Shown: positions 5,921 to 61,647 of the stretch, one piece after another
How the letters are laid out: each line of letters opens with the position of its first letter
Position numbering within the stretch: the first letter of the stretch is position 1
Assembly: GCA_963682175.1 (NCBI GenBank)
Contig: OY821770.1
Span: 19,498,501-19,562,500, forward strand
Length of the DNA: 64,000 nucleotides
Source: Triglochin maritima
Lineage: Eukaryota > Streptophyta > Magnoliopsida > Alismatales > Juncaginaceae
Direction of reading: 5' to 3'
Notes under the pieces: generated by a model
Seen by the model: only the letters and a program-made list of their open reading frames with translations
Told to the model about the DNA's origin: nothing
Database searches by the model: none
Program-made: the position numbers and the translations under genes

Positions 5921-6364
5921 CGGTCGACCGATGTAGTGTTTTACTCAATTTTAACCATCACCGGTTGAACGATGCCTTGCGGCGGTCGACCGGTTGTGTA
6001 TTTGTGCTGGTGAATCGGGGCTTCCTGTTGTGTTTCGGTCGACCGTCCCTTGTTTTGGGGTCGACCGGAACTTAAGTGTACTTGAGATTTATGCATGTTG
6101 TTCGACCGTTTTATGTATATCGTTCGACCGTTATATGACGTAGACTATTATGATGACCCTGGTCGATTTCTGTCGACTGAGACCCCTGAGTCGGTCGACC
6201 AAATAGTCTTTGGTGATTTTGACCTCATATTTGGTCGACCGGTTTTAGACTTCTGTTCGACCGTTTGGACTTAAGTGACGCGTAGAATAGTTCGACCGTT
6301 GTAGACTTTCGGTCGACCGAACCTTTTGGGGACGGTCGACCGTTTAGGCTTTTTCGGTCGACCG
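5921..6364. promoter_or_regulatory. CGGTCGACCG palindrome array, Gypsy-1 5' LTR
   Basis: Exact decamers CGGTCGACCG occur at 5921, 5983, 6036, 6310, 6333 and 6355. Several near copies or half-sites (TTCGACCGTT, GGTCGACCGG) lie between them. The intervening sequences differ in length and content, so this is not a simple tandem repeat. The partner array in the 3' LTR is at 15866-16348. Confidence 0.8.
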
Positions 6365-6654
6365 TTTGTGTGCAGAACTGAATTCCTGGTCTTGTGGTCG
6401 TGTCAACTCTGTCCACGGAAACCCGTGTCCTCACTTAGAGCGTGAGCCGGGAGGTGACGGCGGGTACGTGCTCGTACCGCCCAGGGACCGTCGTGTGGAA
6501 GAGTGTGCACACTTGGGTCGCGCCACCTCCGGATTGGACGTGGTGTGACATGTTGATGCCTTACTCTCTGATGAGTAGCAGACCTGAGGGATCGCAGATT
6601 CCAATGCGTGTGACACATGGCTCGTGGAGCATGATGACCCTGCAGACTACGGTC

Positions 6655-6850
6655 TGGACCCGTCCGATGTTGTGTCGGACGTATGTTGTATCGCCGATGT
6701 TGTGCCGCCGATGCCGCCGAGGTGGTTGCCGGCGATGATGATGCCGACGATGTTCCGGCTTGTGGTTGTGCCATCCGATGTTGTGCCAGAGGTATGTTGT
6801 ACCGCCGACGTTGTGCCGGTGATGCCGCTGATGTGGTGCCAGCGATGATC
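6655..6850 (+). repeat. GC-rich minisatellite in the Gypsy-1 LTR
   Basis: Imperfect short repeats built from CCGATGTTGTG and GTATGTTGTACCG. The same block occurs at about 16645-16830 in the other LTR. Confidence 0.7.
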
Positions 6851-7543
6851 CCCGATTGGGCACCTATCCTGGGATGTTGACCAACCGGGCTACGGCTCCC
6901 TCGAAGGTGGTGTAGACCACGTGGTTCTTTGCGTGGAAGTGCGGACGCTCCTCACCGATCCCTTTGGCTCGAGTAGTCGCATGTGGGGGGACGCGTTGCG
7001 TACTGTCCGTAAGACCGTATGTGCCTACGGTAGATTTCCGAGGGAGACCCGTTGTTTTTGTTGCTGGACTGATGTCCTTGTGAACCCCGTTGAGGGTCGT
7101 TGTTGTTGGACTGTGGTCCCGTTTACCCTGTTGAGGGACTTGATGCATTACAGATGTGACATGACATGCTTCTAGTATGATAGGTTCATTTACCGTACTA
7201 TTGGATGCATCTAGGTGAGCTTGGCATACGGGGTTTCCTAATGGGAAACTCAAGCATCGTTGTTTGATTCATGTTTCAAGACCATAGTAGGTTCTGCAGG
7301 GTGGTGACAGCGGGCGCACACATTTTGGGGTCAGGATCCTCATCGGACTCTTCGAGGTCGTCGTGATTGCATTACCTGTGTTTTCATTGTACTGTTGTAA
7401 TCACGTCTTTTGACAAACTCTGTTGTATTATTGGTGCACCGACTGTTGATTTACTTGAGTGACATTCCCGTTGATAAGTTTATTCTGATATTCTCTTGTT
7501 AAATTAAAATTTTAAATTTCCGCTGTTTCGGGATGTTACAACT

Positions 7544-7555
7544 TGGTATCAGAGC
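7544..7555 (+). other. Primer-binding site of Gypsy-1
   Basis: TGGTATCAGAGC begins 3 bases after the LTR end, complementary to initiator tRNA-Met. Confidence 0.9.
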
Positions 7556-7664
7556 GGTCGGTCCCTATGTGTGGCTCCAAAAGAAATCACACAGTGTAGT
7601 AGTGTAGGTTGCACTTTACATTTTGCATGTATTCATGACTGATTTTGACTGTTTCTTGTGCCAG

Positions 7665-8530
7665 ATGCCTCCGAGATGTGTGAGGAACGTTGCGAATGAG
7701 CGTGTTGCCAGTGATGCCACTGAGGGCGCTACCTGGGATAGGTTGAGCGAGTTCCTTGAACGTCAGGCAGCTAGGGCAGAGCAGACAGGGACAGGTGCGG
7801 AGCATGATTGCTTCATGAGGCAGCACCCGCCTAGTTTTGATGGCAGGAGTGACCCTGAGGCTGCAGAGGACTGGGTCCTTAAGATCCAGAGGATTTTCCA
7901 GGTGATCGGCTGTGTACCGGAGCGGATGGTGAGCCTGGCCACCTATGTGCTGGATGGAGAGGCAGCAAACTGGTGGAGGACCGCATCTGTTGTGGTGTTC
8001 GCTGACCGAGTTGACGTGGGCTGGGAGGAATTCCTTGTGGAGTTCAACCAGCAGTTCTTCCCGCAGCACGTCCGAGACAGGAAGAAGGAGGAGTTTTTGG
8101 CCCTCGAGTAGAAGGAGATGTCCTTGGCTAGTTACGTCAGCAGGTTTAACGCCTTGAGCGTTATTGTTCTGAGACCTACGTGACGCCGGAGCGGCATGCA
8201 CGAAAATTCATCAAGAAGATGAGGAAGCATCTCAGGTCGCGTGTGATTACCAGCATGCCGCAAACCCTGGTGGATGCGGTGAAGTATGCGATTCTCATCG
8301 ATCAGGACTACCAGGAGAATTACCAGGAGGCGCGGAAGCCGCCAGTGAGCACGGGAGGACGTGCAGTTGGACGTTCCACTGGGAACCCGGGCAAGAGGCC
8401 CCGGGTTGATGGAGGAGGATCACGCCAGTCTGGTGCGTGTGGTACGTGTGGGAGATTTCACCTAGGTCAGGAGTGCCCCCGACGTACAGGTGCATGTTTG
8501 GGATGCGGTTAGATGGGACATTTCATCCGA
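7665..8530 (+). pseudogene. Gypsy-1 gag
   Basis: Retrotransposon Gag (capsid and nucleocapsid). I chose the ATG at 7665 (MPPRCVRN) because it follows a splice acceptor and matches the Gypsy-2 start MPPRRKR. The Retrotran_gag core is clear (RQHPPSFDGR, DWVLKIQRIF, NWWRTA, FNQQFFPQHVRD). The frame is broken by TAG at 8109-8111, then by a frameshift before 8180. The nucleocapsid has one CX2CX3HX4C knuckle (CGTCGRFHLGQEC) and a second (CLGCG-stop-MGHFIRDC) that carries an in-frame TAG at 8510-8512. It is not translatable as one protein. Confidence 0.9.
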
Positions 8531-10747
8531 GATTGCCCGAGCAGGCAGGGCGAGACGAGTAGGAGGCCAGGACCACCGGTCTCAGGGAGGAGCAGAGGCA
8601 GCAGGTCCGTCGTCCCGCAGAGCCAGACAAGGAGAGCAGGTCGAGTCTTCACCGTCCGGGCTGAGGAGGCGAAGGACTCCAACACTTTTGTGGAAGGTAC
8701 CCTTGTCATTTCAGGTTTGGTTGCTCGTGTTTTATTTGATTGCGGCGCCACGACTCCTTCATTTCGTAGAAGTTTGCGAGCGAGTTGGATCGGACCCCTG
8801 AGCTACTGACTGATTTGTTGGAAGTCAGTACGCCCATGGGTGAGGTGGGCACTGTGGGGAGCTTTCGCCCCGGCACCACAGTTGTTTCGGGAGACCATGA
8901 TTTTCATGCAGATCTGGTCTTACTACCGATGGAGGACTTCGACGTCATATTGGGGATGGACTGGCTATCACAGTACGATGTGCGATTCTTTTGCCGTGAG
9001 ACGAAGATCTTTATTCCGAGGAAGGACGCGCCTGATGTGTTGATCAGAGGGACGAGGAGTAGAGGAGGTTGTCTGATTGTGTCTGCAGTTAAGGCACAAA
9101 GGTTGTTGTGTGAGGGTTGCAGGGCATTTGTGGCGACATTAGTTGTTCCTGATCCTGAGACGAGGAGGCTGGAGGATATAGAGGTCGTACAGGAGTTTCC
9201 AGATGTGTTTCCTGCAGAGATTCCTCGTTTACCGCCACACCGAGAGATCGAGTTCGGCATTGAGTTGACGGCTGACACGACACCCCAGTCGAAGGCACCG
9301 TATCGGATGGCACCTGCTGAGTTGACAGAGCTGAAGAAGCAGTTGCAGGAGTTGATGGACTCTGGATTTATCCGACCGAGTGTCTCGCCGTGGGGAGCGC
9401 TTGTGTTGTTCGTGAAGAAGAAGGATAGGTCGTTGCAGATGTGCATCGACTGCAGGATGCTGAATAAGGTTACTGTCAGGAACCGGTACCCTTTGCCCAA
9501 GATTGATGACCTGTTTGATCAGTTGCAGACAACGAGAGTGTTCTCGAAGATTGATCTGCATTCCGGTTATCACAAGTTGCGGATCAGAGAAGCAGATGTT
9601 CAGAAGACAGCCTTCAGGACACGATACGGGCACTACGAGTTCTTGGTGATGTCGTTTGGACTGACGAATGCACATGCAGCATTCATGGACCTGATGAATA
9701 GGACCTTTCAGCCGTACCTGGACAGATTTGTTGTCGTGTTTGTGGATGACAACTTGGTGTACTCGCCTGACAGGGAGCAGCACCGGGAGCACCTGAGGAT
9801 TATGCTTGGAATCTTGAGAGATCAAGAGTTGTATGCCAAGTAAACGAAGTGCGAGTTTTGGTTGGATCAGGTGGCATTTCTGGGGCATATTGTGTCAGCA
9901 GATGAGATTTCAGTGGATCTGGCGAAGGTTGAGGTTGTGACTCAGTGGAGAGCCCAACCGAGCATGACAGAGATCAGGAGCTTCGTGGGACTTGCTGGGT
10001 ATTACAGACGGTTCATTCAAGACTTCTCCAGACTTGCTTCGCCGCTGACAGCGTTGACGCAGAAGGGCGTCAAGTTCGTTTGGTCCCAGAAGTGCGAGGA
10101 CAGTTTTCAGGAGCTGAAGAGGCGACTGACGACAACGCCGATTCTGACGCTACCGAGTGGCAGTGGAGGCTATATGATTTACAGTGATGCATCAGGGGTT
10201 GGCTTGGGCTGTGTTCTGATGCAGCACGAGAAGGTAGTGGCGTACGCTTTGAGACAGCTGAAGGTACACGAGAAGAACTACCCTACTCATGATCTGGAGT
10301 TAGCAGGGGTGGTTCACGCGTTGAAGACCTGGCGACATTATCTTTATGGCGAGCAGTTCGAGGTCTTCACAGATCATCAAAGCTTGAAGTATTTGTTCTC
10401 ATAGAGGGAGCTGAATATGAGGCAGCGCTGATGGCTCGAGTTCATTAAGGATTACGACTTCACCATCTCCTATCATCCGGGAAAGGCGAATTCGGTTGCG
10501 GATGCACTGAGCATGAAGGTTGAGGTGTCAGTTGCGAGCTTGTGCGTGCAGGAGTGGAGGCTACTCGAGACGTTGTCAGAGTGGAGGTCGTTCACAGAGG
10601 GCTCTGAGAGAGCAGTGATTGCTGGGCTTCGGGTGGAGCTGCAGACCGTCTCGCGTGTGGTGCAGGCGCAGCGTGACGATGAGGAGTTAGCTGGTCAGCT
10701 ACAGTTGGCTGCCAGAGATGGATCAGACTTCAGTGTGGGGGTTGATG
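8531..10747 (+). pseudogene. Gypsy-1 protease, reverse transcriptase and RNase H
   Basis: The aspartic protease is seen at about 8640-8990 (LFDCGAT active-site motif, then [12 protein letters not shown]). A frameshift at about 8760-8785 splits it. RT spans about 9280-9840, including [15 protein letters not shown] and FVVVFVDDN. The catalytic box reads VDDN where the sister Gypsy-2 has VDDI. RT ends in TAA at 9841 after YAK. RNase H (9862-10404) has [21 protein letters not shown] and [11 protein letters not shown], then a TAG. The remaining linker runs to the CACTA insertion at 10748. Order and motifs place it in Ty3/gypsy, and the stops show it is dead. Confidence 0.92.
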
Positions 10748-12340
10748 CACTAGTGAAGAAAAGGCCATATATGTTGGATATACAGGGGTATAGACGTCGG
10801 ATTTTGACGGTCCAAGTACCTGACGTATATTTCCCCATCACCTATTCCTTGTTGTATAGACGTCGGCTATAAACCACCGACGTCTATACAATGTATAGAC
10901 GTCGGCTATATACGACCGACGTCTATTATACGTTCAATTAAACCCAAAAAATACATTACATCCTATATCGGGCATTCTGCACTCACATTAATCAAGCCCA
11001 AGATACCCAAGTGCCAATCTTTTGACAAATAACCAAGAATATCAAAACCAACATGCCCAGGTGCACCAACTCGTTCGCGTTCAGCAGTAAAGGAGTGGTA
11101 GAGTACATCAACCACACCAACAAAAATAAATTCTCCGATGTGGGACTAAACTTTTATGCCCTATAGACGTCGGATATATAGGTTGACCGACGTGTATACT
11201 TAGAGCATGACCTATAGACGTCAGTCATGCTATACATCCGACGTCTATACATTGATATATCAATAATTAATAAAAAAATATGCCCTATAGACGTCGGTCA
11301 TGCTATACATCCGACGTCTATACATGAGTTAATAGTAAAAAAAACGTTGCAACCATTTTGAGCCCAAAATGCCCAAGTGCCCCAAGTGCCAATCTTTTGA
11401 CCATTAAATATATGTATACCTCACTTGCATGTTGTAGTGTGGTACTAAACTCCTATTTAGAAGTAAAGGAGTGGTGGAGTACTTCAACTCCACCAATAAA
11501 AAAATTTCTCTAATGTGGGACTAAACTTCAGCACATGTGACCATACACACACATGTGATAGCTACATTGATGTAACTTTTTTAAATTCACATTATTCTTA
11601 TACAAAATAAATCCACCTAAATTCTTACACACAAAAAACCCAAAAAATTTCATTAATTCTTAAACAAAATAAATCTTAAAAAATTACGTTAATTCTTACA
11701 CGAAATAAATCCCAAAAAACTGATTTATTTCTTATACAAAATAAATCCACATAAATTCTTATACGAAATAAATCCAAAAAAATAAACAAAAAATATTTTC
11801 TTCTTTCAGGAGGTATAGACGTCGGTTATACTAAAAAATCGACATTTATACAAACAGATAGACGTCGAATGTAAAAATTGTTGGATTTCATGTTTAATTA
11901 TACATATATATTTTCGAAATTTTTATGTATAATAAGGATCATCTACAATTTTCTACGATTTATTTCATGCATGTATTGGTTTGTTTCAATAACTAGTTTT
12001 AAAAACTTATTAAAACAAACATGAGTCTACGAAATTCATACCTAGAAGTTCTCTAAAACTTCTTGAAGATTCGGAGACGCTGTGGATGCTTGTTGCTGCG
12101 CCGGATGCCTCCGAGTATTCACCAAACTCTAAACAAGATCGGAGAGAAGGAAGCTAGTCTCTCAATCTCCGATAGGGTTTAGAATCCAATTACTAACCCC
12201 TCTTTAATTCCCTTGAGAAGATGATCTCTTAAGAACTAAAACTAAACTTAAGAATTAAGGAATTTTCGTGGAGAATTATGGAGAGAGAATTTTTTTGCAT
12301 GAGAAAGCAATGAATGAATTTAGGAGGTAATGAGATAAAC

Positions 12341-12353
12341 TTGTATTTATAAG
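12341..12353 (-). promoter_or_regulatory. TATA box of the Copia-A LTR
   Basis: The minus strand reads CTTATAAATACAA, an excellent plant TATA box. The same position is kept in the other copies (about 41938-41950 and 60163-60176). The palindrome array starts about 180 bp upstream in each. Confidence 0.65.
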
Positions 12354-12531
12354 TTCTCTCCAAATTACCTATTCATGTGCAACCTCTTGCCCATGATTTC
12401 ATGCAAAATTCCATCTAACCATCCATTATTTAATAATAAATAATCTTAGCCACAAATTAAATCAATTATGGACCAATTCCATGCATGATCTAATTAATTC
12501 TTAAATTAATTCTGCTGAAAACCGTCTGGAC

Positions 12532-12760
12532 CGGTCGACCGTTTCAAGGTTCGGTCGACCGCTCGAACCAGGTGTCGGTCGACCGTTCAATAACTCGGTC
12601 GACCGTTCGTAACAGGAACTATTCCATCGCAATGTTCGGTCGACCGACCGATCACATTCGGTCGACTGTTCGAACAGATGAAAATTCCCTGTTATCGGTC
12701 GAGACACGTCCGGTCGACCGTGCCCGATCGGTCGACCGTTTACTGCTAACCGGTCGACCG
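12532..12760. promoter_or_regulatory. CGGTCGACCG array, Copia-A solo LTR
   Basis: Eight exact decamers lie within about 230 bp (12532, 12552, 12576, 12596, 12637, 12711, 12729, 12751), plus a TCGGTCGACTG variant. Spacers are 8-64 bp and unlike one another. It sits upstream of the TATA box, in the U3 position expected of an enhancer. Confidence 0.85.
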
Positions 12761-14021
12761 TTGGAGCACTGTTCTGCAGACTTGTCAAATTTCGGTTTAA
12801 CCCCTACAAAATTTGACATTTCGGGATTAGTAGTAAATTCACAACTTATGCAACATATTATCCTATGTAATGATCAATCATTACACCCCATAATATTTAC
12901 ATCACATATGAATTTAATTTAGATTCTAATTACGTTATTAATCACAACATAATTTTGATTTTGCTTGTTCACCCCATGTGTCATATTTTCTACATGAAAC
13001 TCGACACATCTTATGAACTCAAAATCCCATTTCTGGTTTCCCAGTTTTGTGGTATGACCTATGGGAGGATCTAAACTAAGTTGGCAGTGATATTAAGAGC
13101 TTAATATCACAAGCTATAAGCGGTATCTAGCTACACATTATAGCTCCCAATTAGTTAGATGTCTTAATTCCACTCGAACCAAAACCCGATCCATTTAGTG
13201 ATGGAGTGCACCACTTGTGTCCGTCCCTTGCCTCATGATATTAAGAATACACACAAAGTAGTATTGTGTCATCTTTGTATTAGTATTCATTTCTTGATCT
13301 CTTTAAGCTAGTTATAAATATGTGACTTAACTCAAATCACATTGTGCACATTACAACTTTGCTTTATCAAGGGGCCCACTAATATCATCACTCAATTAAG
13401 AGGGGCAATGATAGTCTTTTGACTAACTATCTTCTCCAACAAAAGTTGTACTTAACCAACCAATGCCTTTACACTACACTTATTGATAGTTCAAGACACT
13501 GATCTAATTAAGTATTCCTTAAGTGATCAGATATAAGTCTCATATCAAAGGACCAAAGACACAGTAAAATATTAATGACACAGAAACACATTTCTATAAT
13601 ATTTTACTTATTAGGTCTATTCAGTATACAAAAGTAATATTTTCCTCTTTTGCATACCCGTGTTGTCACTCACTTGTAGACTACAATGATCTATGACTAA
13701 CACGACAATCTTAACCCGGTAATAAATGTCCCATGTTAATTACCATGATTGCGAATCTCTTTTGTTTTATGTAAACCAATATCTTTTAGAGCTCTACGGT
13801 TAAGGACCAAGAGCCTCTTCCTCAACACTTCCAAAAGACGAATAACATAAACAAGGAACAAAATGATTTCTCATTCACTTCATAATAATTGACATTTAAA
13901 AGTAAAACTTTTAGAATACATTCCCTTCAAACATATCCGACGTCTATATCTATAGACGTCGGATGTTTTTACATCTGACGTCTATTTGGTGACGTCTATT
14001 GAGCATTCTGCAGTAGTGATG

Positions 14022-15342
14022 GTGGTCTGAGGTTCAGGAGTCGGATCTGGGTGCCGCAGGTTGATGGACTGAGAGATGACATCATGGAGGAGGCACACCG
14101 AGCGAGATATACCATCCACCCTGGGAGTACGAAGATGTATAAGGACCTGCAGCGGAACTTCTGGCGGAAAGGGCATGAAGAGAGATATCGCGGAGTTCGT
14201 GGGCCGGTGCTTAGTCTGTCAGCAGGTGAAGATTGAGCATCAGCGACCAGCGGGACCGATGCAGTGTATTGAGCTTCCTGAGTGTAAGTAGGAGCACGTG
14301 ACGATGAATTTTGTCACGGGGCTGCCGAAGACGAGGAGATTCCACGACGCGATTTGGGTGATAGTCGATCGACTGACCAAGTCGGCGCACTTCTTAGCGA
14401 TCAGGACCACGTTGCCTCTGGAGGGTCTAGCTAAGTTGTACGTAGAGGAGATAGTCAGATTGCACGGAGTACCAGTGAGCATCATCTCTGATCGAGATCC
14501 CAGGTTTACATCTAGGTTTTGGGGGAGTCTGCAGCAGGCTTTGGGGACACGACTAAGATTCAGTACATCGTTTCACCCGCACATAGATGGTCAGTCAGAG
14601 AGGACGATCCAGACCCTGGAGGATATGCTGAGAGCATGTACTTTGGATTGGTCAGGACACTGGGATGAGCATCTGCCGCTGATAGAGTTCGCCTACAACA
14701 ACAACTACCATTTGAGTATTTGGATGACACCGTACGAGGCCTTGCAGATCACCAGTATGCTAGAGTGATGTGGGTGAGAGGTAGTTAGTGGGGCCAGAGC
14801 TCGTGCAGATGTATGCAGAGAAGGTGGATGTGATCCGGAGGAGATTGGCCACGACACAGAGCAGGCAGAAGAGTTACGCTGATAGACGCAGACGGGCGTT
14901 GAGCTTTGAGGTTGGTGACCATGCGTTCCTAAAGATCTCCCCAGCTCGGGGAGTGATGAGGTTTGGGAAGAAGGGGAAGCTCAGTCCGAGGTACGTCGGG
15001 CCGTTCAAGATCCTAGACCGTGTTGGAGAGGTTGCCTACTGGATTGCATTTCCACCACAGTTTTTCGGTCTTCAGAACGTCTTCCATGTATCGATGTTGA
15101 GGAAGTATGTTGTAGATCCAGCTTACGTGATTGAGATTGCAGTGCCAGAGATCCAGCAGGACTTGTCACTCGAGGAGAGACCAGTTGAGATCGTTGATCG
15201 TATGGATCACCAGCTCAGGAGGCGGACCATTCCGATGGTGAAGGTCCGGTGGCAGCATCACAGTGAGCGCGAGGCCACTTGGGAGATCGAGGAGGAAGTT
15301 CGGAAGCAGTACCCGGAGCTTTTCGGTGAGTTGCTTGTTTGA
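14022..15342 (+). pseudogene. Gypsy-1 integrase with chromodomain-like tail
   Basis: This resumes the pol gene after CACTA-1. The zinc-binding H2C2 region ([11 protein letters not shown], then a frameshift, CLVCQQVK) is followed by the DDE core at 14298-14768. The usual first catalytic Asp context MDFVTGLP reads MNFVTGLP here, so that residue is lost. The second Asp (ISDRDPRF) and the Glu ([11 protein letters not shown]) remain. A stop after 14768 and a short gap precede the C-terminal part (14788-15342), which has SPRYVGPFKIL and a chromodomain-like end (VRWQHHSEREATWE). Such tails direct Tekay-type elements to particular chromatin. Integration activity is not expected. Confidence 0.9.
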
Positions 15343-15375
15343 TTTTGGGACAAAATCCTTTTAAGTTTGGTGGAT

Positions 15376-17519
15376 TGTTAGATCCCTAACCTTGCTTTGC
15401 ACTAATCCCGTGATTAGTGGGTTTTGCATGGGGAAGGGCTCGTGCACAGTGTTGTGCGTGGGGAAGGGGAGGAGAATAGTGATGGGTGATGGGTTAGGGT
15501 GGCTGTGGTGATGGGCTTTAAGAGAAAAATGTTTCTCTCCATCTTTCCTTCCTTTCTCACTTTTCTTTCATTCTCTCACCCTTTCTTCTTCTCTTCCGGA
15601 AACCAAGAGATGTGGAGGTTGCTCCGGCGTGAGGCGCGGAGGTCGGTGTGCGAGGAGGCGCGCGTGCGGTCGCAGATCGGAGGTGGTGCCGCGGTTTCTC
15701 CAGCGGGCGTCGTTGATCACACATTTGAGGTATGTCGGCTTCTAGTTTGGTTTTGTTTCTTCCCCACGTTGAGGGATGTTGTTGGTCGGTCGGGGGAGGT
15801 CGGAGACCTCCCCGGTGACGAGATATGCGTAAATCCTCAGCTGGCGCGAGGTTGAAGACGACCAACGGTCGACCGGGTCCCTTTGGGCGGTTGACCAATG
15901 TAGTGTTTTACCCGATTTTAACCATCACTGGTCGAACGATGCCTTGCGGCGGTCAACCGGTTGTGTATTTGTGCTGGTGAATCGGGGCTTCCTGTTGTGT
16001 TTCGGTCGACCGTCCCTTGTTTTGGGGTCGACCGGAACTTAAGTGTACTTGAGATTTATGCATGTTGTTCGACCGTTTTATGTATATCGTTCGACCGTTA
16101 TATGACGTAGACTATTAGGATGACCCCGGTCGATTTCTGTCGACCAGGACCCCTGAGTCGGTCGACCGAATAGTCTTTGGTGATTTTGACCAACTCCGGA
16201 TTTTGACCTCGTATTCGGTCGACCGGTTATAGACTTCTGTTCGACCATTTGGACTTAAGGGACGCGCAGAATAGTTCGACCATTGTAGACTTTCGGTCGA
16301 CCGATCCTTTTGGGGACGGTCGACTGGTTAGGCTTTTTCGGTCGACCGTTTGTGTACAGAACTGAATTCCTGGTCTTGTGGTCGTGTCAACTCTGTCCAC
16401 GGAAACTTGTGTCCTCGCTTAGAGCGTGAGTCGGGTGGTGACAGCGGGTACGTGCTCGTACCGCCCAGGGACCGACGTGTGGAAGAGTGTGGACACTTGG
16501 GTCGCGCCACCTCTAGATTGGACATGGTGTGACGTGTTGTTGCCTTACTCTCTGATGAGTAGCAGACCTTAGGGATCGTGGATCCCAATGCGTGTGACGC
16601 ATGGCTCGTGGAGCATGATGACCCTGCAGACTACGGTCTGGACCCGTCCGATGTTGTGCCGGACGTATGTTGTACCGCCGATGTTGTGTCGGCGATGCCG
16701 CCGAGGTGGTTGCCGGCGATGATGATGCCGACGATGTTCCGGCTTGTGGTTGTGTCGTCCGATGTTGTGTCGGACGTATGTTGTACCGCCGATGTTGTGT
16801 CAGCGATGTCGCTGATGTTGCCAGCGATGATCCCCGATTGGGCACCTATCCTGGGATGTTGCCCGACCGGGCTACGACTCCGTCGAAGGTGGTGTAGACC
16901 ACGTGGTTATTTGCGCGGAAGTGCGGATGCTCCTCACCGATCCCTTTGGATCGAGTAGTCACGTGTGGGGGGACGAGTCGCGTACTGTCCGTAAGACCGT
17001 ATGTGCCTACGGTAGGTTTCCAAGGGAGACCCGTTGTTGTTGTTGCTGGACTGATGTCCTTGTGAACCCCGTTGAGGGTCGTTGTTGTTGGACTGGGGTC
17101 CCGTTTACCCTGTTGAGGGACTTGATGCATTGCAGATGTGACATGACATGCTTCTAGTATGATAGGTTCATTTACCGTACTATTGCATGCATGTAGGTGA
17201 GCTTGGCATACGGGGTTTCCTAATGGGAAACTCAGGCATCGTTGTTTGATTCATGTTTCAAGACCGTAGTAGGTTCTACCGGGTGGTGACAGCGGGCGCA
17301 CACATTTTGCGGCCAGGATCCTGATCGGACTCTTCGAGGTCGTCGTGATTGCATTACCTGTGTTTTCATTGTACTGTTGTAATCACGTCTTTTGACAAAC
17401 TCTGTTGTATTATTGGTGCACCGGTTGTTGATTTACTTGAGTGACATTCCCGTTGATGAGTTTATGATATTCTCTTGTTAAATTAAACCTGTAAATTTCC
17501 GCTGTTTCGGGATGTTACA
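15376..17519 (+). repeat. 3' LTR of Gypsy-1
   Basis: It begins TGTTAGATCC after AAGTTTGGTGGAT, the likely polypurine tract. It ends GGGATGTTACA at 17519. It repeats the 5' LTR plan: splice-donor-like GAG/GTATGTC at 15730, palindrome array 15866-16348, GATGTTGTG minisatellite about 16645-16830. Scattered substitutions and small indels separate the two LTRs. Confidence 0.92.
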
Positions 17520-18007
17520 GTATATATATGTAGAATTGGTGTGAAACGGGAGAAGGTTTTGGCTGGATAAGGATTTTAGAAGTGGGGGAGTATAGGAGAA
17601 GGTGAGAAGCGTTGGAAGCAGGAGGTGAGGTGTTTGGTGCTGATAAATGCTTGTGGAGGTGTAAGGTTTAAATAGAGAAATCAGCACCCGTTCTTTCAAT
17701 CAACGAATTTCTCCCTCAAACTTATCTTCGATACCTCATTCGGGTGGAGAGGCGTAGGGAGTTCAGTGGAGTCAAATGAGCTGAAAGAAGAAAAGTGGTG
17801 GGCTATTATTCTCGCAATGGAGCACCGGAGGAGTGAAGAAAAGAAAGGAAATAAGATTGTCGAGATCGTGTGGAACTCCGGCAAACGTGAAGAAAAGGTA
17901 TGTCAAGTTCGAATTAATGGCTCACACTAGGTGTGAGAGGGTTTAGGTGGGTCGTCGAAGGTCTGAAACCTCACTAGAGCAAAGTTCAGTTGAGATACAT
18001 GGTAGAA

Positions 18008-18985: not shown

Positions 18986-19061
18986 TGTTACGGGTGACCT
19001 TGTAGGGCCCACATTTATTTATAATATGTAGGTTTTCTATCATGTTAAGTAAAGTTATGTT

Positions 19062-21548: not shown

Positions 21549-21550
21549 TC

Positions 21551-21562: not shown

Positions 21563-21570
21563 CTCGTCTG

Positions 21571-23852: not shown

Positions 23853-23857
23853 TCCCT

Positions 23858-51414: not shown

Positions 51415-54400
51415 TCACCTGCTAACAAACCAGACATCTGCCCACAAACTCTGCTATCTCAGTCTTCATCCCCCTCCACCAGAAATTTCTCTGAAGATCC
51501 TTATACATCTTCGTGCTACCCGGGTGGATGGAATAACGGGACCTGTGTGCCTCCTCCAAGATTTCCTTCCTCAGATCTCCCCCATTTGGTACCCAAACTC
51601 GGCCTCTGAATCTCAGACCTCCGTCAAATCCTATACTGAAATCTGATCCTTCTCTGGCAACCAGCTGCAACAACCTAGCTAACTCCTCGTCAGCCCTCTG
51701 AGCCTGAACAATACTTGTGACCATCTGAGGCTCCACTCTCAGTCCAGCTATCACCGCGCCCTCAGAGTCCGTGGTGAATGGCTTCCATTCTGACAATGTC
51801 TCGAGCAGTTTCCACTCCTGAATACACAAACCAGCGGCTGAAATTTCCACCTTTCTGCTCAAGGCATCCACGACTGTATTCGCCTTCCCCGGATGGTAGG
51901 AGATGGTGAAATCATAGTCCTTGATCAGCTCAAGCCACCTACGCTGCCTCATATTCAGCTCTTTCTGCGAAAACAGATACTTCAGACTCTGATGGTCCGT
52001 GAACACCTCGAACTTCTCCCCGTACAAATAATGACGCCAGGTCTTCAGCGCATGAACTACTGCCGCCAACTCCAAATCGTGAGTGGGGTAGTTCCTCTCG
52101 TGCACTTTCAACTGCCTCGAAGTATAAGCTACTACCTGACCGTGTTGCATCAGTACACAACCCAACCCCACACCAGAAGCATCACTATAAATCACAAAAC
52201 GTCCACTGCCACTAGGGAGAGTCAGAACTGGAGCAGTCGTCAACCGACTCTTCAGTTCCTGAAAATTGTCCTCACATTTGTGGGACCAAATAAACTTCAC
52301 TCCCTTCTGTGTCAGTGCCGTCAAAGGTGAAGCAAGCCTCGAGAAGTCCTTGATGAATCGACGATAACAACCCGCCAATCCAACAAAGCTCCTGATCTCT
52401 GTCACACTCGTCGGGGCTCTCCACTGAGTCACTGCCTCCACCTTCGCTGGATCCACTGATATCCCAGCCCCAGATACAATGTGACCAAGAAAAGCGACAC
52501 TGTCTAACCAAAACTCGCACTTCGAAAACTTAGCGTACAACTGATGATCTCTCAGAATGCCAAGTACGATCCGCAAGTGCTCCCTGTGCTGCTCTATGTC
52601 CGGTGAATATACCAAGATGTCATCTACGAAGACCACCACAAATCTGTCGAGGTACTGACTGAACGTCCTGTTCATCAGATCCATGAAAGTTGCAGGCACG
52701 TTCGTCAATCTGAACGGCATCACTAGAAACTCATAGTGACCGTATCTCGTCCTAAACGCGGTCTTCTGAATGTCTGCCTCTCTGATCCTCAACTGATGAT
52801 ACCCGGATCGCAGATCAATCTTCGAATATATCTTCGCTGACTGCAACTGGTCAAACAAGTCCTCAATCCTGGGTAAAGGATACTGATTCCACACAGTAAC
52901 ATTGTTCAGCATCCTGTAATCGATGCACATCCGCAATGAGCCATCTTTCTTCTTCACAAATAGTACCGGAGCTCCCCAAGGCGAGACACTGGGGCGGATA
53001 AACCCAGTATCTAACAGATCCTGCAGCTGCTTCTTCAGCTCAACCAACTCAGCCGGTGCCATCCTATAAGGAGCCTTCGACTGTGGAGTGGTCCCCGCCA
53101 CTAAATCAATACCGAACTCCAACTCCCTGTGAGGCGATAGACTAGAAACATCAGAAAATACATCACCAAACTCCTGGACAATCTCTATGTCCTCCAACGA
53201 CCTCATCTCTGGATATGGAACGACCAAGGTAGCCACGAAAGCTTTGCAGCCCTGCTCAAGCAGCTTCCGTGCCCTCACTGCTGACACTACGACCCGACCA
53301 CCACGGTCCTTCCTTCCCCTGATCAGTAAATCAGGTAGCCCCTTCCTCGGGATCAGAATCTTCTTCTCCCGGCACAAAACCCGAACATCATACTGGGATA
53401 TCCAATCCATCCCCAGTATAACATCGAAATCCTCCATCGGCAACAAGATCAGGTCAGCAGGAAACTCCTGATCTTCTGAAACAATCGTGGCGCCGGGGAG
53501 GAAGCTCCCCACAATGCCCACCAGACCCAAGGGTGTACTGACTTCCAACGTGGCAGTCAACATCGCAGGGGTACGGCCCAACACACTCGCAAATCTCTCA
53601 GAAATGAACGAATGCGTGGCCCCACAATCGAACAACACTCTGGCTACCAAACCCGCAATAAGGAGCGTACCTTCCACCACAGTGCGGGCGTCCTTCGCCT
53701 CCTCCGCCTGAACGGTGAATACACGTCCGGTCCTCTGTCCCTGCTGAGGTGGTGCAAAAGGACGACGACCTCCGTCTCTACCCACCACTGGGGGTCTCGC
53801 TCGAGAACTGGACTCGCCTGGTCCGCTCCTGCAATCTCTGGCATAATTGCCTGGGTGACCACAACTGAAACAAACTCCAGGACGACTCCCACACTCTCGA
53901 CCTGGGTGGACTCTACCACACTTCCTGCACGGCTCAGGCTGGCGTGCACTGCTCCCCTCTATCCGGGGCCTCTTGCCCGGATTTCCTGACAGTGGAGCTC
54001 CCGGACGTCCACTGCTCTTCCCCTGGGGCCTCCTGGACTCTGCATAATTTTCCTGATAGTCTTGGTCTATGAGAGTCGCGAACTTCACGGCATCTGCTAA
54101 GGTCTGAGGCATGTTGTAAGTCACGCGAGTACGAAGTTGCTTCCGAAGCCCCCGAATAAACTTCCTCGCCCTCTGAATCCGGGTCACACAAAACTCCAGA
54201 CAATAACGCTCCAAAGCGTTGAACTTCCGGATGTAATCCGCCAGTGTCATCTCACCCTGCTCGAGGCTCATGAACTCCTCTCTCTTCCCGTCCCTGACAT
54301 GCTCCGGGAAGTACTGCTCATTGAATTCCCTGAGGAACTCATGCCAACTGATATCAATCCTGCCCGGAAACACCACTGCAGCCGTGGTCCTCCACCAGTT

Positions 54401-54736
54401 TGACGCCTCGCCGCCCAACAGATACGTGGCCAACCCCACCATCCTCTCCGGTGGACTGCCAATCGCCTAGAAGATCTCCTGGATCTTAAGGACCCAGTCC
54501 TCGGTGGCCTCAGAATCTTCTCTGCCATCAAATGCAGGCGGGTGTTGGCGCATAAACCGGTCGTGCACAGCCCCTACCCCTGCCGTCTCCTCTCTGCCAG
54601 ACTGACGATCTAAAAGAACGCCCATCCTCTGCACAGTGTCGTAGAGCATCCGGTGCTCCTCAGCCCAATCCGTGGCTCCAGTCTCCTCACTCGTACTCGG
54701 GCCAAGTGGGGGAAGTCTCTTGCGTCTCGGAGGCAT
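51415..54736 (-). pseudogene. Gypsy-2 gag-pol, nearly open but without integrase core
   Basis: It starts MPPRRKRLPPL at 54736, directly after a splice-acceptor-like TTGTCTCGTGTGTAG. Gag core: RQHPPAFDGR, WVLKIQEIF. One TAG follows (54464-54466, normally Gln). The rest stays open for about 1,000 residues: zinc knuckles ([13 protein letters not shown], and [14 protein letters not shown] where Asn replaces the usual His), protease ([21 protein letters not shown]), RT with the intact box FVDDILVYS, RNase H ([22 protein letters not shown]) and the start of the integrase zinc finger ([20 protein letters not shown]). A TAG follows the last Cys. Loss of integrase means it could only act in trans, if expressed. 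Confidence 0.93.
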
Positions 54737-54863: not shown

Positions 54864-55379
54864 ATTTGTAACATCCTCGAAAGCGGAAGAAATTTAAATT
54901 TTTAATAAAACACAACACGAGGATATTACCGAAGAAAATGGAGAACTCGTGCACCAACATATATACAATATATATCTGAGAGTTTTACAAAAGTGTGGTT
55001 ACAACAAAAGCTAAGGAAAATATACATGTAATCACTCAGACCTCAAAACAAGGAAAGCAGGATCGGGCCCTGGAAGCGCTCCTCCTCGGTCACCACCTCC
55101 TAATGTTGCCTATGACCTGACATAAAACATGAATATGCCTGAGTTTCCCGAGAGGAAACCCCGTATGCCAAACCTCTATCACAATAAAAGAACTAGACAG
55201 CTAAAACATGTATGAGATGAAATGCAATAACCATCCATCGTCTCACTGGGCCTCCGGGAACTCTCTCCCTACCACAGTAGACACCAACCAGTGACGGGTC
55301 TCGCGGGTCCTCTAGCCCAACCCTCACACGTGCCCCAGGCACCACAGCCGGAAACATCCTCGGCTAACACGCTGGATCA

Positions 55380-55645
55380 CTCTCAGGTCGGTATCGTCTG
55401 TACCGCTGCCATCTTGAGCTGCTCCAGAAGACCACTCTCAGGCCGGCACCGTCACCCCTCTAGGGCCGGAGATCCGTTGCCATCTTGAGCAGGCCTCACA
55501 CACGAACCACCCTCAGGCCGGTACCGGTCACCCTCAAGGGCCGGAGATCCGTTACCTTCTTGGGCTAGCCCGCCAACACTCGTGAACCACTCTCAGGCCG
55601 ACACCGGTCACCCCTCTAGGGCCGGAGATCCGTTGCCATCTCGAG
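55380..55645. repeat. About 77-bp tandem units in the Gypsy-2 LTR
   Basis: CTCTCAGGCCGG-type starts at about 55380, 55435, 55513 and 55590, each followed by GGGCCGGAGATCCGTT (absent from the first). This is the same relative location as the unrelated minisatellites of the Gypsy-1 LTR and LTR-2. Confidence 0.8.
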
Positions 55646-55697
55646 CTGGCTCCACAACACAAAAACCGTACCAAACGGTCAAACAAAACCTCTCAAC

Positions 55698-56191
55698 CGG
55701 TCGACCGAATCCTCTCCACAGGACTGACCCAACCAATAAAACTGTCAACCGGTCGAACGGCAAAGGGGGTCCCGTTCGACCGAATTCGACCAGTGAAAAC
55801 TCACTCCACAGTAAAAAGCACCAACGGTCGAACCACACGCAAACACCGGTCGACCGAAAACGGCCAGGACCAAACTCAATCTGAACATAGTGCAACGGTC
55901 GACCGAAACAACACTTCGGGTCGACCGGCCAATAAGTTAACTTAAGTTCCGGTCGGACAAAGTCAATGAGCGGTCGACCGTTTAGATGGTCAACGCCCCC
56001 AACCGACATACTACAGTGCTTTCGTTCGACCGGCAAAGGGGTCCCGTTCGAGCGAAAACACACAGAGTCTCCATCCCTTGCTCGAAATGTACTACCGGTC
56101 GACCACCACCAATGTATCGTTCGACCGGTACAAGGGATTTCGCCCAAATTATACTACGACCGGTCGACCAAACCATGCCACCGGTCGACCG
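55698..56191. promoter_or_regulatory. CGGTCGACCG array, Gypsy-2 LTR
   Basis: Exact decamers at 55698 and 56182, with many further sites between (ACGGTCGACCGAA, CCGGTCGACCACC, CGTTCGACCGG and others). On the minus strand the array starts about 110 nt after the splice-donor-like site. Confidence 0.8.
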
Positions 56192-57321
56192 TTTATAGTG
56201 CAGAACGCAGCTGCACGGGTCCCACGAGCCCTCCGGCCTACCGTCGACCACCCCAACACTCACCAAAGCATATGTGAGCATCAAAGTAAAGCTTGACATA
56301 CCTTGAAGACTTGAAGAAGCCTTCGAAGACCCAACGGCGAGCTTCTCCTCACCAAACACCTTCTCCGACGAACTCCGACCGAGCAACGATGTACCCTCAC
56401 CGGCGAGCGTCCGATCCTCGCCTCGCCTTCTGAAACCCACGGTTCGAGCTCCTCCGCACACCGGAGATCTGATCAGAGAGAGAGGGAGAGGATTTGAGCA
56501 GGAGAGAGAGAGAGGAAACGAGAGAGAGAGAGAGAGAGTAATACTGACCAATATATATATACTTTTCTCCTCTAATCTCGACCATCCATCACATCTCTTC
56601 CAAATCAATCTCAGCCCTCCATCCAAACCACCAATTAAGCACCTAATCAAGGCCAAAACATGATTAGTCCTAAGTAAGGATTTAGGATATTACAGATATA
56701 CACGTTGGATATGGCATGGTTAGAATGAAATACGTATGAAGGAAGAAATTGATAGTCCTTCAAATCAAGATGTTAAAGATGAAGAACTGTTAGATGATAT
56801 GATTTGAGATGTTGCCGATAAGTTTGATGATAAACCCAAGTACTTAGTAGTCTGTTATCTGATAATGAAGAATGTTTGTATTCAGGTTGCACCAATTTCA
56901 ATAGATTGTCTGCAGTGTTCCAGTTATATACCTAGAAAGCCTCGAACGGTTGGAGTGATGTCAGTTTTACTGCCTTACTTAATTTGTTAAAAGAAATTCT
57001 TCCAGGAAAGAATGAACTTCCAGATGGGAATGCAGTATAGGAAAATGATGGCTTTTTGGCCCTTTAATCTTAATTTTGATGATTAACAAACTAATAGTAT
57101 GCATAACTTCAATTACAACATCACACACATCATATTGTCAAATTGCATAGATTTTGTGTATTCCTAACAATGTAGGTGATCAAACCAAAGGACTAATCAA
57201 CTTCAAGATCAAGGCTCAAGACTTGTAATCAAAGCTGAAGGACTTAATATGTAATTTTCCATTTATTTGAGTTATAGGATCAAATATACACTTGATTTAC
57301 AAAAGGATAAACCCGTCTGTC

Positions 57322-58156
57322 TCGGTCGTCCGTGTCCTTATCAGTTTACCGAACCAGGTTCCCAACGGATAAACGAGTGTCTATCGGTAAACTGTTCCCT
57401 ATAGAGTCAGTAACCACTTGATCTCCTGGAACCCTTGTTTCATTGTACCGAACCTTATTCGGCCAACCATCCCCTTAGAGTCACTAAAAACTTGATCTCC
57501 TGGAATCCTTGTTTCGGTGTACCGAACGTTATTCGGTCAACCATCTCCTTAGAGTCAGTAGAAAACTTGATCTCCTGGAATCATTGTGTCGGTGTACCGA
57601 ACCTTACCCGGTCGACCGTGTACCTATTCCCAGTAGCTTCAAAACTTCTCTGGACATGGCTATTCGGTATTCCAAAGCGAGATCGGTCATCCAAACTTCC
57701 ATGTGTCTTTTGGCCTAAACCAACTTCATCTTATTGGTCGACGTGGCACAACTAACTCCACCGGACTTATATTTTGTCGTTTAGCCACATCCTTTGAAAC
57801 ATCCATACCGGTCTACCGATGGCTCTTCGGATTACCGAAGTGTTGTTATATGTAAGATCGTAACGGCTATTTTTCCACGTAATATTTCAACCGTTATCGA
57901 TAAACCAATTTCCCATACATGTATCGGTCAACCGAACATGCCACGGTCTACCGAACTTGATCACCGAATCGCACCAAAACTTTACTGTCCACTTTTGCAC
58001 GGTGCGCCGACGCAGTCTCGGTTAACCAAAATTAATTATCCGATATTAGGAAAAAGTTATTGGAAGTTGGTGAATGGTTATCCGACCTATATTCGGTTAA
58101 CCGAGTTCTTATGTCTGACCATTTATTCGGACTACCGTGTTTCTAACGGTCGACCG
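57322..58156. promoter_or_regulatory. Degenerate CGGT-NN-ACCG array, LTR-B
   Basis: About 18 sites, e.g. CGGTGTACCGAAC (twice), CGGTCGACCGTG, CGGTCTACCGAT, CGGTCAACCGAAC, CGGTTAACCGAG, CGGACTACCGTG and CGGTCGACCGAA at 58147. The arms are kept more than the central two bases. The array ends about 100 bp before the TATA box. Confidence 0.75.
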
Positions 58157-58252
58157 AATCTGTCTCGATTTCTGCCCGAGCTTAAGTCACATCTTGTTTT
58201 CCCTTGGTCCAATTCTCACCAACTTACCATAACGGCTCAATTTGTTTTGAAG

Positions 58253-58263
58253 GCTATATAAGC
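58253..58263 (+). promoter_or_regulatory. TATA box of LTR-B
   Basis: GCTATATAAGC, kept in LTR-B copy 1 as GGCTATAAAAGC at about 38356. A C-rich leader follows. Confidence 0.65.
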
Positions 58264-59582
58264 TTCTTTTCACTTAAGAGACACATCCACCACCTCACTT
58301 ACAAAATATCAATCCTACTCTTGTGCTCTCAATCTTCAAGCCTTCAAAGCTCCACCAACTCTCATACTTCCACTAAATTCACTCCAAGCTTAAATCATAT
58401 CCTTGAGTGCATTCAAGTTAGATTTCAACAACCACATTCAATTTCCATTGTGTTGTAAAGCTTCGAGGAAGCACCCTCTCCGGTTGTGCAAGGCGAGGGT
58501 GTTCGCAAGGCTCCGATTGTAAGAGGGTTTATCTTCGACCCGGAACGAAGATAATAGTGAATTCTCGAGTAGGGATCGGAGGATCGATCGGAACTTGAGG
58601 AGAGGACTAGATCACCGTGGTGCGATCGAACCTCTATAAATCTTCGGAGTCATTTGCATTCTTTCCCTTATTGTTTTAATTGTGCAATTGTTTAAGAAAA
58701 TTAGGAGATAATCTATTCACCCCTCTAGATTAGTGACCGATTAACTTACAGAAAATACATGCATGCCCTAATGATTGCATATTATATAGGGTCGAATATG
58801 AAAATCTGCATCGTTGCCCGTTTTGTAATGTGTCATGGTACAAACATAAGAAAAATGGTAGTGGTGATATACCAGTACAAGGACCACCTGCGAAGGTGTT
58901 GTGGTATCATCCGATCATTCCAAGGTTGAAACGTTTGTTTGTCTGCCCTGTGGATTCAAAGAATCTGACACGGGACGCAGATCGTGATAAAGTGAATGAT
59001 CAGATGCCTCGACATCCTGCAAATTCTCCCCAGTGGAAGAAGATCGATTCATATTTTCCAGTGTTCGGTCAAGAATCCAGAAATCTAAGACTTGGTATGT
59101 GTACTGACGGAATAAATCCTTACGGGAGTTTGAGTAGCCTTCTTAGTTCGTGGCATGTTCTACTGGTTATGTACAATCTGCCTCCATGGTTAAGCATGAA
59201 ACATAGATACATGATGTTATCTTTAATGATTTTTTGTCCAAAATAACCGAGTAATGACATATATGTGTATTTGGCTTCCTTGATTGATGACTTGAAGAAA
59301 TTGTGGAACGATGGTGAGCAAGTGTGGGCTTCCTACCATCAACAATCATTTACAATTCATGCGATGATATTTTGCGCAATTAATGACTTACCCGCTTATG
59401 GAAATCTATCTGGCTATTCTGTGAAAGGGCACAAAGTGTATCCTATTTGTGAAAAAAACACATGTTCTTTGCAGCTTTTTCATGGCAGTAAGATAGTGTA
59501 TCTTGTTCATCACAAATTTCTTCCGATGAATCATCTGTACTGTAAAATGAAGAAGGCTTTTAACGAAAAGAAGGATTCAAAC

Positions 59583-59583
<1 letters not shown>

Positions 59584-59619
<36 letters not shown>
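59584..59619. repeat. 36-base poly-C run
   Basis: An uninterrupted run of 36 C within the TNP2 coding text, after AACAC and before GCAGAAATCAG. Translated it would give polyproline. Confidence 0.95.
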
Positions 59620-59620
<1 letters not shown>

Positions 59621-59703
59621 CAGAAATCAGTGTAAGGCAAGTTGTTGAGAGGGTAAAGAACATCCAATGCGAATTGGGCATGCCTTACAAACAATGAATA
59701 TTC

Positions 59704-61647
59704 TGTAGGATTTCTTGTTTAATTATACATATATATTTTTCGAATTTTCATGTATAATAAGGATCAATTTTCAATTTTCTAGAATTTATTGCATGCATCG
59801 GTTTGTTTTAACAATCTAGTTTCAAAACTCTATTAAAACAAACATGAAGGAGCTCCGAAATTCATACCTAGAAGTTCTCTAAAACTTCTCGAAGATTCGG
59901 AGACGGTTGGGATGCTCCTCGCTGCGCCGGATGCCTCCGAGTATTCACCAAACTCTAAACAAGATCGGAGAGAGGGAAGCTAGTCTCTCAATCTCCGATT
60001 GGGTTTAGAATCTAATTACTAACCCCTCTTTAGTTCCCTTTAGAAGATGACCTCTGAAGAACTAAAACTAAACTTAAGAATTAAGGAATTTTCGTGGAGA
60101 ATTATGGAGAGAGATTTTGCATAAGAAAAATAATGAATTAATTAAGGAGGTAATGAGATAACCTTGTATTTATAGGTTCTCTCCAAATTACCTATTCATG
60201 TGCAACCTCTTGCCCATGATCCCATGCAAAATTCCATCTAACCATCCATTATTTATTAATAAATAATATTAACCACGAATTAAATCAATTATGGACCAAT
60301 TCCATGCATGATCTAATTAATTCTGCAGAAAACCGTCTAGACCGGTCGACCGTTACTGTTCATCGGTCGACCGGTACTGTTCATCATGGACCGGTACTGT
60401 TCATCGGTCGATTGGTTACTGTTCATCGGTCGACCGGGTACTGTTCATCGGTTGACCACTACTATTCATCGGTTGACTTTTGCGCAGTACTGCAGACTGG
60501 TCAAATTTTGGTTTAACCCCTACAAAATTTGACATTTCGGGATTAGTAGTAAATTCACAACTTATGTAACATATTATCCTATGTAATGTCAACTCATTAC
60601 ACCCCATAATATTTACATCACATATGAATTTAATTTAGATTCTAATTATGTTATTAATCACAACATAATCTTGATTTTGCTCGTTCACCCCATGTGTCAT
60701 ATTTTCTACATGAAACCCGACACATCTTATGAACTCAAAATCCCCATTCCTTGTTTCCCAGTTTTGTGGTGTGACCTATGGGAGGATCTAGACTAAGTTG
60801 GCAGTGATATTAAGAGCTTAATATCACAAGCTATAAGCGGTATCTAGCTACACATTATAGCTCCCAATTAGTTAGATGTCTTAATTCCACTCGAACCAAA
60901 ACCCGATCCATTTAGTGATGGAGTGCACCACTTGTGTCCGTCCCTTGCCTCATGATATTAAGAATACACACAAAGTAGTATTGTGTCATCTTTGTATTAG
61001 TATTCATTTCTTGATCTCTTTAAGCTAGTTATAAATATGTGACTTAACTCAAATCACATTGTGCACATTACAACTTTGCTTTATCAAGGGGCCCACTAAT
61101 ATCATTACTCAATTAAGAGGGGCAATGATAATCTTTTGACTAGCTACCTTCTCCAACAAAAGTTGTACTTAACCAACCAATGCCTTTACACTACACTGAT
61201 CGATAGTTCAAGACACTGATCTAATTAAGTATTCCTTAAGCGATTAGATATAAGTCTCATATCAAAGGACCAAAGACACAGTAAAATATTAATGACACAG
61301 AAACACATTTCTATAATATTTTACTTATTAGGTCTATTCAGTATACAAAAGTAATATTTTCCTCTTTTGCATACCCGTGTCGTCACTCACTTGTAGAGCT
61401 ACAATGATCTATGACCAACACGACAATCTTAACTCGGTAATTAATGTCCCATGTTAATTACCATGATTGCGAATATCTTTTGTTTTATGTAAACCAATAT
61501 CTTTTAGAGCTCTACGGTTAAGGACCAAGAGCCTCTTCCTTAACACTTCTAAAAGACGAATAACATAAACAAGGAACAAAATGATTTCTCATTCAATTCA
61601 TAATAATTGACATTTAAAAGTAAAACTTTTAGAACACATTCCCTTCA
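59704..61647 (-). repeat. Copia-A solo LTR in the CACTA-3 transposase
   Basis: 1944 bp, TGTAGGATTTC to CCCTTCA. There is no matching 5-bp duplication. Instead a 22-bp stretch (AATTGGGCATGCC...) occurs directly after the right end (61648-61669) and again at 59672-59693, separated from the left end by ten extra bases. TATA box (minus) at 60163-60176. No internal Copia sequence remains. Confidence 0.92.
60343..60480. promoter_or_regulatory. Homogenised CGGTCGACCG array, Copia-A solo LTR
   Basis: CGGTCGACCG at 60343, 60364 and 60427, with variants between. Most are followed by the same spacer TACTGTTCAT, giving a period near 20 bp. The corresponding array in the 11879-13929 copy has unrelated spacers. 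Confidence 0.8.

Follow-up and report, generated by a model that had tools for sequence, protein, structure and literature searches.

One palindrome, CGGTCGACCG, forms arrays in the long terminal repeats (LTRs) of several retrotransposon lineages in a stretch of 64,000 nucleotides of the Triglochin maritima genome (contig OY821770.1 of assembly GCA_963682175.1, positions 19,498,501 to 19,562,500; called the window below). These arrays are a real and strong feature. Their carriers appear to belong to at least three deep lineages, namely Sireviruses, other Ty1/copia elements and Ty3 chromoviruses, and the sites inside the arrays are mostly spaced by whole turns of the DNA helix. We consider it rather probable that the arrays act in cis as regulatory modules, enhancers being the likeliest kind, and that they are built of sites for a host DNA-binding dimer and were gained separately by several lineages. 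New as far as we searched are the occurrence in more than one superfamily and the 10.5-bp grammar.

The window holds 37 exact copies of CGGTCGACCG, where 20 first-order Markov simulations gave none, and 70 sites within one mismatch (exact copies counted in); the word CGGTNNACCG was found 52 times, against 0-2 per simulation. All 37 exact copies lie inside the clusters named by an initial annotation of this DNA, whose observation is confirmed apart from the corrections given below. The genome-wide count against a control, which it had proposed, gave 359,535 exact copies in 1,063,122,952 bases (167 contigs) and 90 copies of the reversed control word. Contig C2 (152 kb) was not shown to be plastid, as no tRNA and no open reading frame (ORF) of 150 amino acids was found in 2.7 kb. 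A sample of 234,551 bases was made of the window and 18 loci of 10 kb (L011 and L012 partly N), and at least one exact copy was present in 9 of these 18 loci. No other 10-bp palindrome in this sample was nearly as over-represented as CGGTCGACCG (116 observed, 0.03 expected), and a gap of 4 between CGG and CCG occurred 188 times, whereas the gaps 0-3 and 5-8 occurred 13-46 times each.

Near exact sites the commonest single-mismatch form was the G3T variant CGTTCGACCG (34 of 85, followed by C1T with 18, G2A with 8 and C5T with 7; the tally comes from fetched loci, is folded by symmetry and counts related copies). This variant occurs 31,079 times forward and 30,577 times reverse in the genome, 61,656 in all, with 132 and 166 for the controls. 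The change is a transversion and not CpG decay. Perhaps CGTTCGACCG is a second accepted half-site.

Array regions were clustered with the motifs masked, leaving out groups of fewer than three sites within one mismatch, which gave 13 clusters; 18 loci fetched later added two. Each of 12 cluster representatives carried 6-18 sites within one mismatch. In 12 clusters, 104 of 121 adjacent spacings between such sites fell within 2 bp of whole 10.5-bp turns (43% expected), and the mean cosine at 10.5 bp was 0.665, while the maximum in 20,000 random placements was 0.218. When each cluster was reduced to a single representative, exact sites (9 clusters, 53 spacings) had a mean cosine of 0.69, with 0.29 as the highest value among 5000 random placements; when one mismatch was allowed (10 clusters, 90 spacings), the two values were 0.66 and 0.20. 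The single-member clusters window 40390, L012 and L023_9729 were excluded from the phasing tests, and cluster E was represented by LTR-B 57323, with too few exact sites for the exact-site test by representatives. The in-phase spacings were distributed over all groups: 34 of 41 in chromoviruses, 20 of 22 in the Sirevirus group, 23 of 27 in Copia B, I and J together, and 27 of 31 in K and M.

The period was estimated from all pairs up to 300 bp. With the phase fixed at zero, the best period was 10.48 (bootstrap 10.46-10.52) and 10.2 scored -0.03; with free phase the peak was at 10.45-10.50 (0.56-0.58), against 0.28-0.29 at 10.2. Adjacent spacings of exact sites peaked at 10.55 with free phase, and a set of 42 exact-site groups with 164 spacings had its best period at 10.5 (7 of the 42 groups have a single site and no spacing, and the second LTR copy C1:195226-195750, having the spacings of 188451, was reduced to one site). 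Distances between exact copies, related copies counted, peaked near 21-22, 31-33, 40-42, 50-54, 63-64 and 72-74 bp and again at 94-95, 104-106, 115-116, 124-127, 134-138 and 146-149 bp, and none was found at 26-30, 34-39, 97-101, 108-111 or 140-143 bp.

Agreement with the phase of exact sites faded with divergence, from 0.67 at one mismatch (n=35) to 0.45 at two (n=37) and 0.11 at three (n=32). Control words in the same arrays, with a threshold of 25 spacings that was reached by 3-mers and 4-mers and by no 5-mer, gave means of 0.00 (53 3-mers) and 0.03 (15 4-mers), with a maximum of 0.24. The 18 later-fetched arrays are partly dependent on the earlier set, as 13 of these loci fell into clusters already defined and every one was picked for holding the G3T variant. 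They gave a cosine of 0.61 for sites within one mismatch (205 spacings, maximum 0.145 in 5000 jitters, period 10.50) and 0.475 for exact sites (108 spacings, maximum 0.238 in 5000 jitters, period 10.55).

Phasing of this kind favours a DNA-bound protein with its copies on one face over RNA hairpins, and less decisively over nucleosomes. We propose that a dimeric host protein would bind the symmetric CGGTC-GACCG site and that bound proteins would align on one DNA face, touching or bridging their neighbours at whole turns (2, 3, 4, 5, 6, 7 and so on). At least three lineages (Sireviruses, other Ty1/copia and Ty3 chromoviruses) would have acquired arrays separately, with sites kept while spacers turn over. 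The initial annotation had suggested recurrent gain under selection for a bound factor. The helical phasing argues strongly for the factor; the Gypsy families, however, probably did not gain their arrays independently. Because one motif recurs across superfamilies, the binder is probably a host protein, for which the 10.5-bp grammar is a filter among candidate factors. Activation seems more likely than silencing. If this is so, unrelated retrotransposons would have converged on a common host factor, for which this genome contains several hundred thousand sites. The stronger form, in which a single host protein polymerises along the DNA face and regulates several unrelated lineages that converged on one binding grammar, is doubtful. 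The site holds three CpGs, which may be symmetric methylation targets, and the factor may read or resist methylation. The WRKY box is TTGACC, and methylated TmCGACC might resemble it on both strands; possibly silencing itself creates an activator site.

The elements of the window that carry arrays are as follows.

5417..7540, plus strand: 5' LTR of Gypsy-1 (Ty3 chromovirus), primer binding site at 7544, LTR pair 92.4% identical
5921-6364 (LTR positions 505-939): array of the Gypsy-1 5' LTR with 10 sites (6 exact, the others at one mismatch); the donor-like AGGTATGC lies ahead of it, at LTR position 367
7608..15339, plus strand: Gypsy-1 internal part, split by a Copia-A LTR, with fragments of gag, protease, reverse transcriptase (RT), RNase H, integrase and chromodomain
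11879..13930, minus strand: Copia-A LTR inside Gypsy-1, apparently solo; array 12532-12760, with TATAAATA at LTR position 1580, ~180 bp past the array
15361..17519, plus strand: 3' LTR of Gypsy-1, array 15866-16348
17540..19853 (start approximate), plus strand: solo LTR-2, chromovirus-like, array 18008-18594; AAGGTATG at ~17895, spotted by eye
26283..28434, plus strand: diverged Copia-A LTR, sparse array 27545-27800 with two exact copies
37593..38896, plus strand: related copy of LTR-B (67.7% alignment with LTR-B 57045..58750), array nearly absent
40251..40629, strand not assigned: trio of CGGTNNACCG at 40251, 40502 and 40620
41475..43576, minus strand: Copia-A LTR, seven CGGTNNACCG within 42130-42425, two exact
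43577..44972, minus strand: Copia-A internal remnant with RT pieces; the polypurine tract (PPT)-like AAGTGGGAGAT adjoins the LTR and is not a Sirevirus PPT
51425..54466, minus strand: gag-pol ORF of Gypsy-2 (Ty3), from Pfam
54866..56694, minus strand: 5' LTR of Gypsy-2, start at 56694 placed by eye; primer binding site-like word at 54863, minus strand, one mismatch
55698-56191: array of the Gypsy-2 5' LTR, 12 sites within one mismatch, 5 of them exact
57045..58750 (boundaries approximate), plus strand: LTR-B, degenerate array 57323-58156, then TATATAAG at ~58255
59703..61648, minus strand: Copia-A solo LTR, array 60343-60436

Among the clusters listed by the initial annotation, the LTR-B cluster at 37730-38264 is weak, with one one-mismatch site (38039) and no CGGTNNACCG, and the one at 40251-40629 has three CGGTNNACCG but no exact copy; this last region is weakly similar to 57323-58156, L021 and L033. 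All array-bearing Copia-A LTRs of the window are on the minus strand except 26283-28434. The arrays are not universal, because two related Copia-type copies at 1171-4144 and 20926-23854, which have ~0.65-kb repeats and short internal parts (with gag in the first), showed no palindrome array in the window site scan; they can serve as negative controls.

Gypsy-1 matched the Pfam models Retrotrans_gag, RVP_2, RVT_1, RT_RNaseH, SH3_Tf2-1 and Chromo (the last with E 1.3e-05 and 25.5 bits, cut-off 25.1), with rve below cut-off. The chromodomain of L014, likewise a Ty3 element, scored E 0.00017 and 21.9 bits, below cut-off. Gypsy-2 and L018 have Ty3-type RT and RNase H, and no chromodomain was in their scanned ORFs, which stop short of the pol end. 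The pol regions of Gypsy-1 and Gypsy-2 are ~77% alike over 1.5 kb, and the end of solo LTR-2 resembles the Gypsy-1 LTR end at 64%.

A Copia pol search led to plant retroelements, and a PR-1-like host protein matched Rhododendron (62% identity) and Vitis (53%) with the best E-values and Zostera with the highest identity (74% over 87%), which safely indicates no more than a flowering plant. Among the Copia elements, L023 (cluster H; 1665-7030) has LTRs 99.8% identical and gag as the sole coding part found, and is recent and probably non-autonomous. It carries the Sirevirus PPT set, five AGGGGGAG octamers at 3174-3459 on the minus strand, the terminal one being AGGGGGAGAT followed by TG at the 3' LTR. 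The start of LTR-B 57045..58750 resembles the L023 LTR start and was judged by eye to be Sirevirus-like. In L010 (cluster F), with a gag 39% identical to that of L023, the Copia pol ends at 4463 and an array follows at 4652-5164, so that the distance from pol end to array end is 0.7 kb. This looks like an array in a Sirevirus linker; no PPT octamer was found in the L010 linker, and a Copia-A LTR follows at 5692. Copia-A itself (cluster B) has 2.0-kb LTRs, Copia RT pieces and the PPT-like AAGTGGGAGAT followed by TG at 43577 on the minus strand, with the same flank in L001. By the PPT test it would not be a Sirevirus, and its RT pieces match family I and not L010 at E 1e-5. Family I (L029, L035, L030) is another Copia, with the PPT-like AGGTGGAGAT ahead of the LTR (by eye) and an RT ~34% identical to L010 and 37-42% to the Copia-A pieces. 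Family J (L032) has a Copia-like layout with the TATAAATA box past the array, and no coding part of a retrotransposon was detected next to it.

The place of the array inside the LTR differs between groups. A TATA word, found by pattern or by eye, lies downstream of the array by ~180 bp in Copia-A, 95 in L023, 98 in LTR-B, 54 in L032 and 77 in L030; in L029 of family I no TATA word was found at the place seen in L030. Copia-type arrays would sit ~50-190 bp ahead of the TATA box. Chromovirus arrays would come after a conserved donor-like AAGGTATG and, in sequences that show one, after a TATA-like box, and they might belong to a leader intron. The words AAGGTATG(C/T) or AGGTATGC are conserved ahead of the arrays in L018, L014, L027, L028, L031 and the chromovirus LTRs of the window, and may be the splice donor of an LTR leader intron. 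The donor-like AGGTATGC precedes the array in six of nine sequences, the Gypsy-1 3' LTR being without the exact word; AAGGTATGT was seen by eye in solo LTR-2 and Gypsy-2.

Several observations weigh against phased enhancers gained separately. The TATA-like word precedes the array in only five of nine chromovirus sequences, Gypsy-1 having just a weak CTTTAAG, and some LTRs contain several TATA words, which were found by pattern. One promoter mechanism is not obvious, because the array comes ahead of the TATA box in Copia elements and seemingly past it in chromoviruses. As for the phasing, 17 of the 121 spacings are out of phase, off-phase distances between exact copies are present at 44-48, 57 and 77-79 bp, and conserved spacings of 57, 25 and 40 bp recur in the Gypsy-1 group. 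With free phase, adjacent spacings of sites within one mismatch fit 10.15 (0.707) slightly better than 10.5 (0.667). Since the chromovirus-group clusters are related, the arrays that count as independent number closer to five than to twelve. Spacers of the Gypsy-1 group are no faster than flanks (0.73 against 0.65, 5' LTR against L031), and the small-RNA hotspot of maize Sireviruses and the manner of obtaining motif and spacer identities, both given below, belong on the same side.

The initial annotation knew of no named system of this kind. This did not hold, as palindromic CGG-CCG "repeated motifs" (RM) have been described from the LTRs of 13 Sireviruses (Bousios et al. 2010, PMC2829016), and the RM of Vitis is exactly CGGTCGACCG. 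The likeness extends to many copies per LTR and to copies in the pol-env linker, which are similar to the L010 array past the Copia pol. RM sites lie a short distance upstream of the LTR TATA box; here this placement was seen in Copia-A, L023, LTR-B, L032 and L030 and not in L029, and in five of nine chromovirus sequences a TATA-like word lies ahead of the array instead. A further trait given for RM arrays is a border with CpG islands (PMC2829016); here CpG observed/expected outside the motifs was 0.65-1.05 in nine LTR sequences. In that paper the RM is called Sirevirus-specific and absent from other, 'classic' retrotransposons, the other Ty1/copia elements examined among them, whereas the arrays here are also in non-Sirevirus Copia elements and Ty3 chromoviruses. 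Its authors could neither trace the RM to one site recognised by a single factor nor name a protein that binds them, and a search of the paper for RM spacing, helical or periodic, found nothing. In maize, Sirevirus palindromes are described as part of a cis-regulatory region which evolves rapidly and is a hotspot of small RNAs (PMC5311732; PMC10760457). They are like the present arrays in being clustered in the LTR cis-region and in evolving rapidly; their palindrome is different, CACCGGACNNNGTCCGGTG, is also reported from structured regions of Helitrons (PMC10760457), and has been studied by small-RNA mapping, while the arrays here are known from sequence. Among the matches listed from open-licence literature there was no report of CGGTCGACCG in Ty3 elements or of helical phasing, and no known CGGTC/GACCG-binding transcription factor, LOB domain included, was found in the part of that literature covered.

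Two further systems are comparable. In the VANDAL/VANC system of Arabidopsis, arrays of short transposon motifs are bound by a sequence-specific protein that is transposon-encoded and family-specific. That binder is self-encoded, whereas the motif here is common to unrelated elements, including L023 with gag alone detected, and this points to a host protein. The U3 enhancer boxes of Tnt1 and Tto1, which are also Copia elements, likewise repeat activator sites in the LTR ahead of the TATA box; they differ from the present arrays in having few copies, other motifs and a single family.

Besides enhancers bound by a host dimer, the palindromes could let the host detect or silence the elements, either by RNA hairpins feeding small RNAs or by a bound repressor. 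The two forms together seem unlikely to us. The maize hotspot is in favour of it, and so is the divergence of array spacers, which differ more than flanks in Copia-A and Sirevirus-group LTRs. Between the Sirevirus-group LTRs L023 and L021 the identity was 0.88-0.94 in motifs, 0.54 in spacers and 0.75 in flanks, and between the Copia-A LTRs at 12 kb and 60 kb it was 0.74-0.77, 0.44-0.46 and 0.91, respectively, these values leaning on motif-anchored alignments and on sites defined by the presence of the motif. RNA pairing does not need 10.5-bp spacing; a DNA-binding repressor is compatible with it. Purely harmful sites are hard to explain as gained and kept in several lineages.

Common descent or exchange, in which an ancestral array was copied among families by recombination or template switching and diverged later, is quite unlikely. 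Arrays do descend together within a family, and chromovirus-group clusters share short spacer pieces: Gypsy-2 (cluster D) groups with L014 and shares pieces with L018 (cluster G), L042 and L047, and Gypsy-1 (cluster A) shares a single 15-bp piece with L018 (E 0.01). The statement of the initial annotation that the LTRs are dissimilar outside the motif is right among the chromovirus, Sirevirus, Copia-A, I and J groups and wrong for the Gypsy arrays, which are interrelated in pol and in these spacer pieces. Across groups the situation is different. With motifs masked, a comparison of 12 representatives at E 0.1 gave no spacer match from one group (chromovirus, Sirevirus, other Copia) to another, the motif is kept while spacers diverge, and the array place relative to the TATA box differs. 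No copied spacers were seen between superfamilies, in line with the initial annotation. As there is no spacer similarity between groups, separate gain is the best reading, with old exchange followed by turnover as a possible course.

The arrays may also be a by-product of tandem duplication, with motif and spacer duplicated in units of ~21 or 73 bp and phased without selection on phase. We regard it as improbable. Some short units exist (Tandem Repeats Finder gave 74 bp in LTR-B, 44 bp in Copia-A and 21 bp at 60343-60477), and the spacings of family J alternate 22, 51, 22, 42. But such units were found in just some window arrays, spacings vary among families with 10.5 bp and not one unit length as the shared rule, and diverged one-mismatch sites are in phase as well.

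It is very improbable that CpG-rich palindromes merely set rotational positioning of nucleosomes or an architectural complex with no sequence-specific factor: the helical periodicity would suit it, and the 10.15-bp fit of adjacent spacings is near the nucleosomal period of 10.2, but the all-pair period is 10.48 with a score at 10.2 about zero at fixed phase and half as high or so with free phase, and a full 10-bp sequence with a fixed 4-bp gap exceeds what a rotational signal should need. RNA-level roles (kissing loops, packaging) were set aside on the DNA helical period.

Other features were seen in the window. Positions 1-705 hold a further Copia-A LTR fragment with no array. An ORF with a FAR1 DNA-binding domain at 34023-34778 is a host gene or a Mutator-like remnant. 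Pieces of Transposase_21 (tnp2) together with DUF4218 at 58737-62502 resemble a CACTA-type transposon split by a Copia-A LTR, and a run of 36 C lies at 59584-59619.

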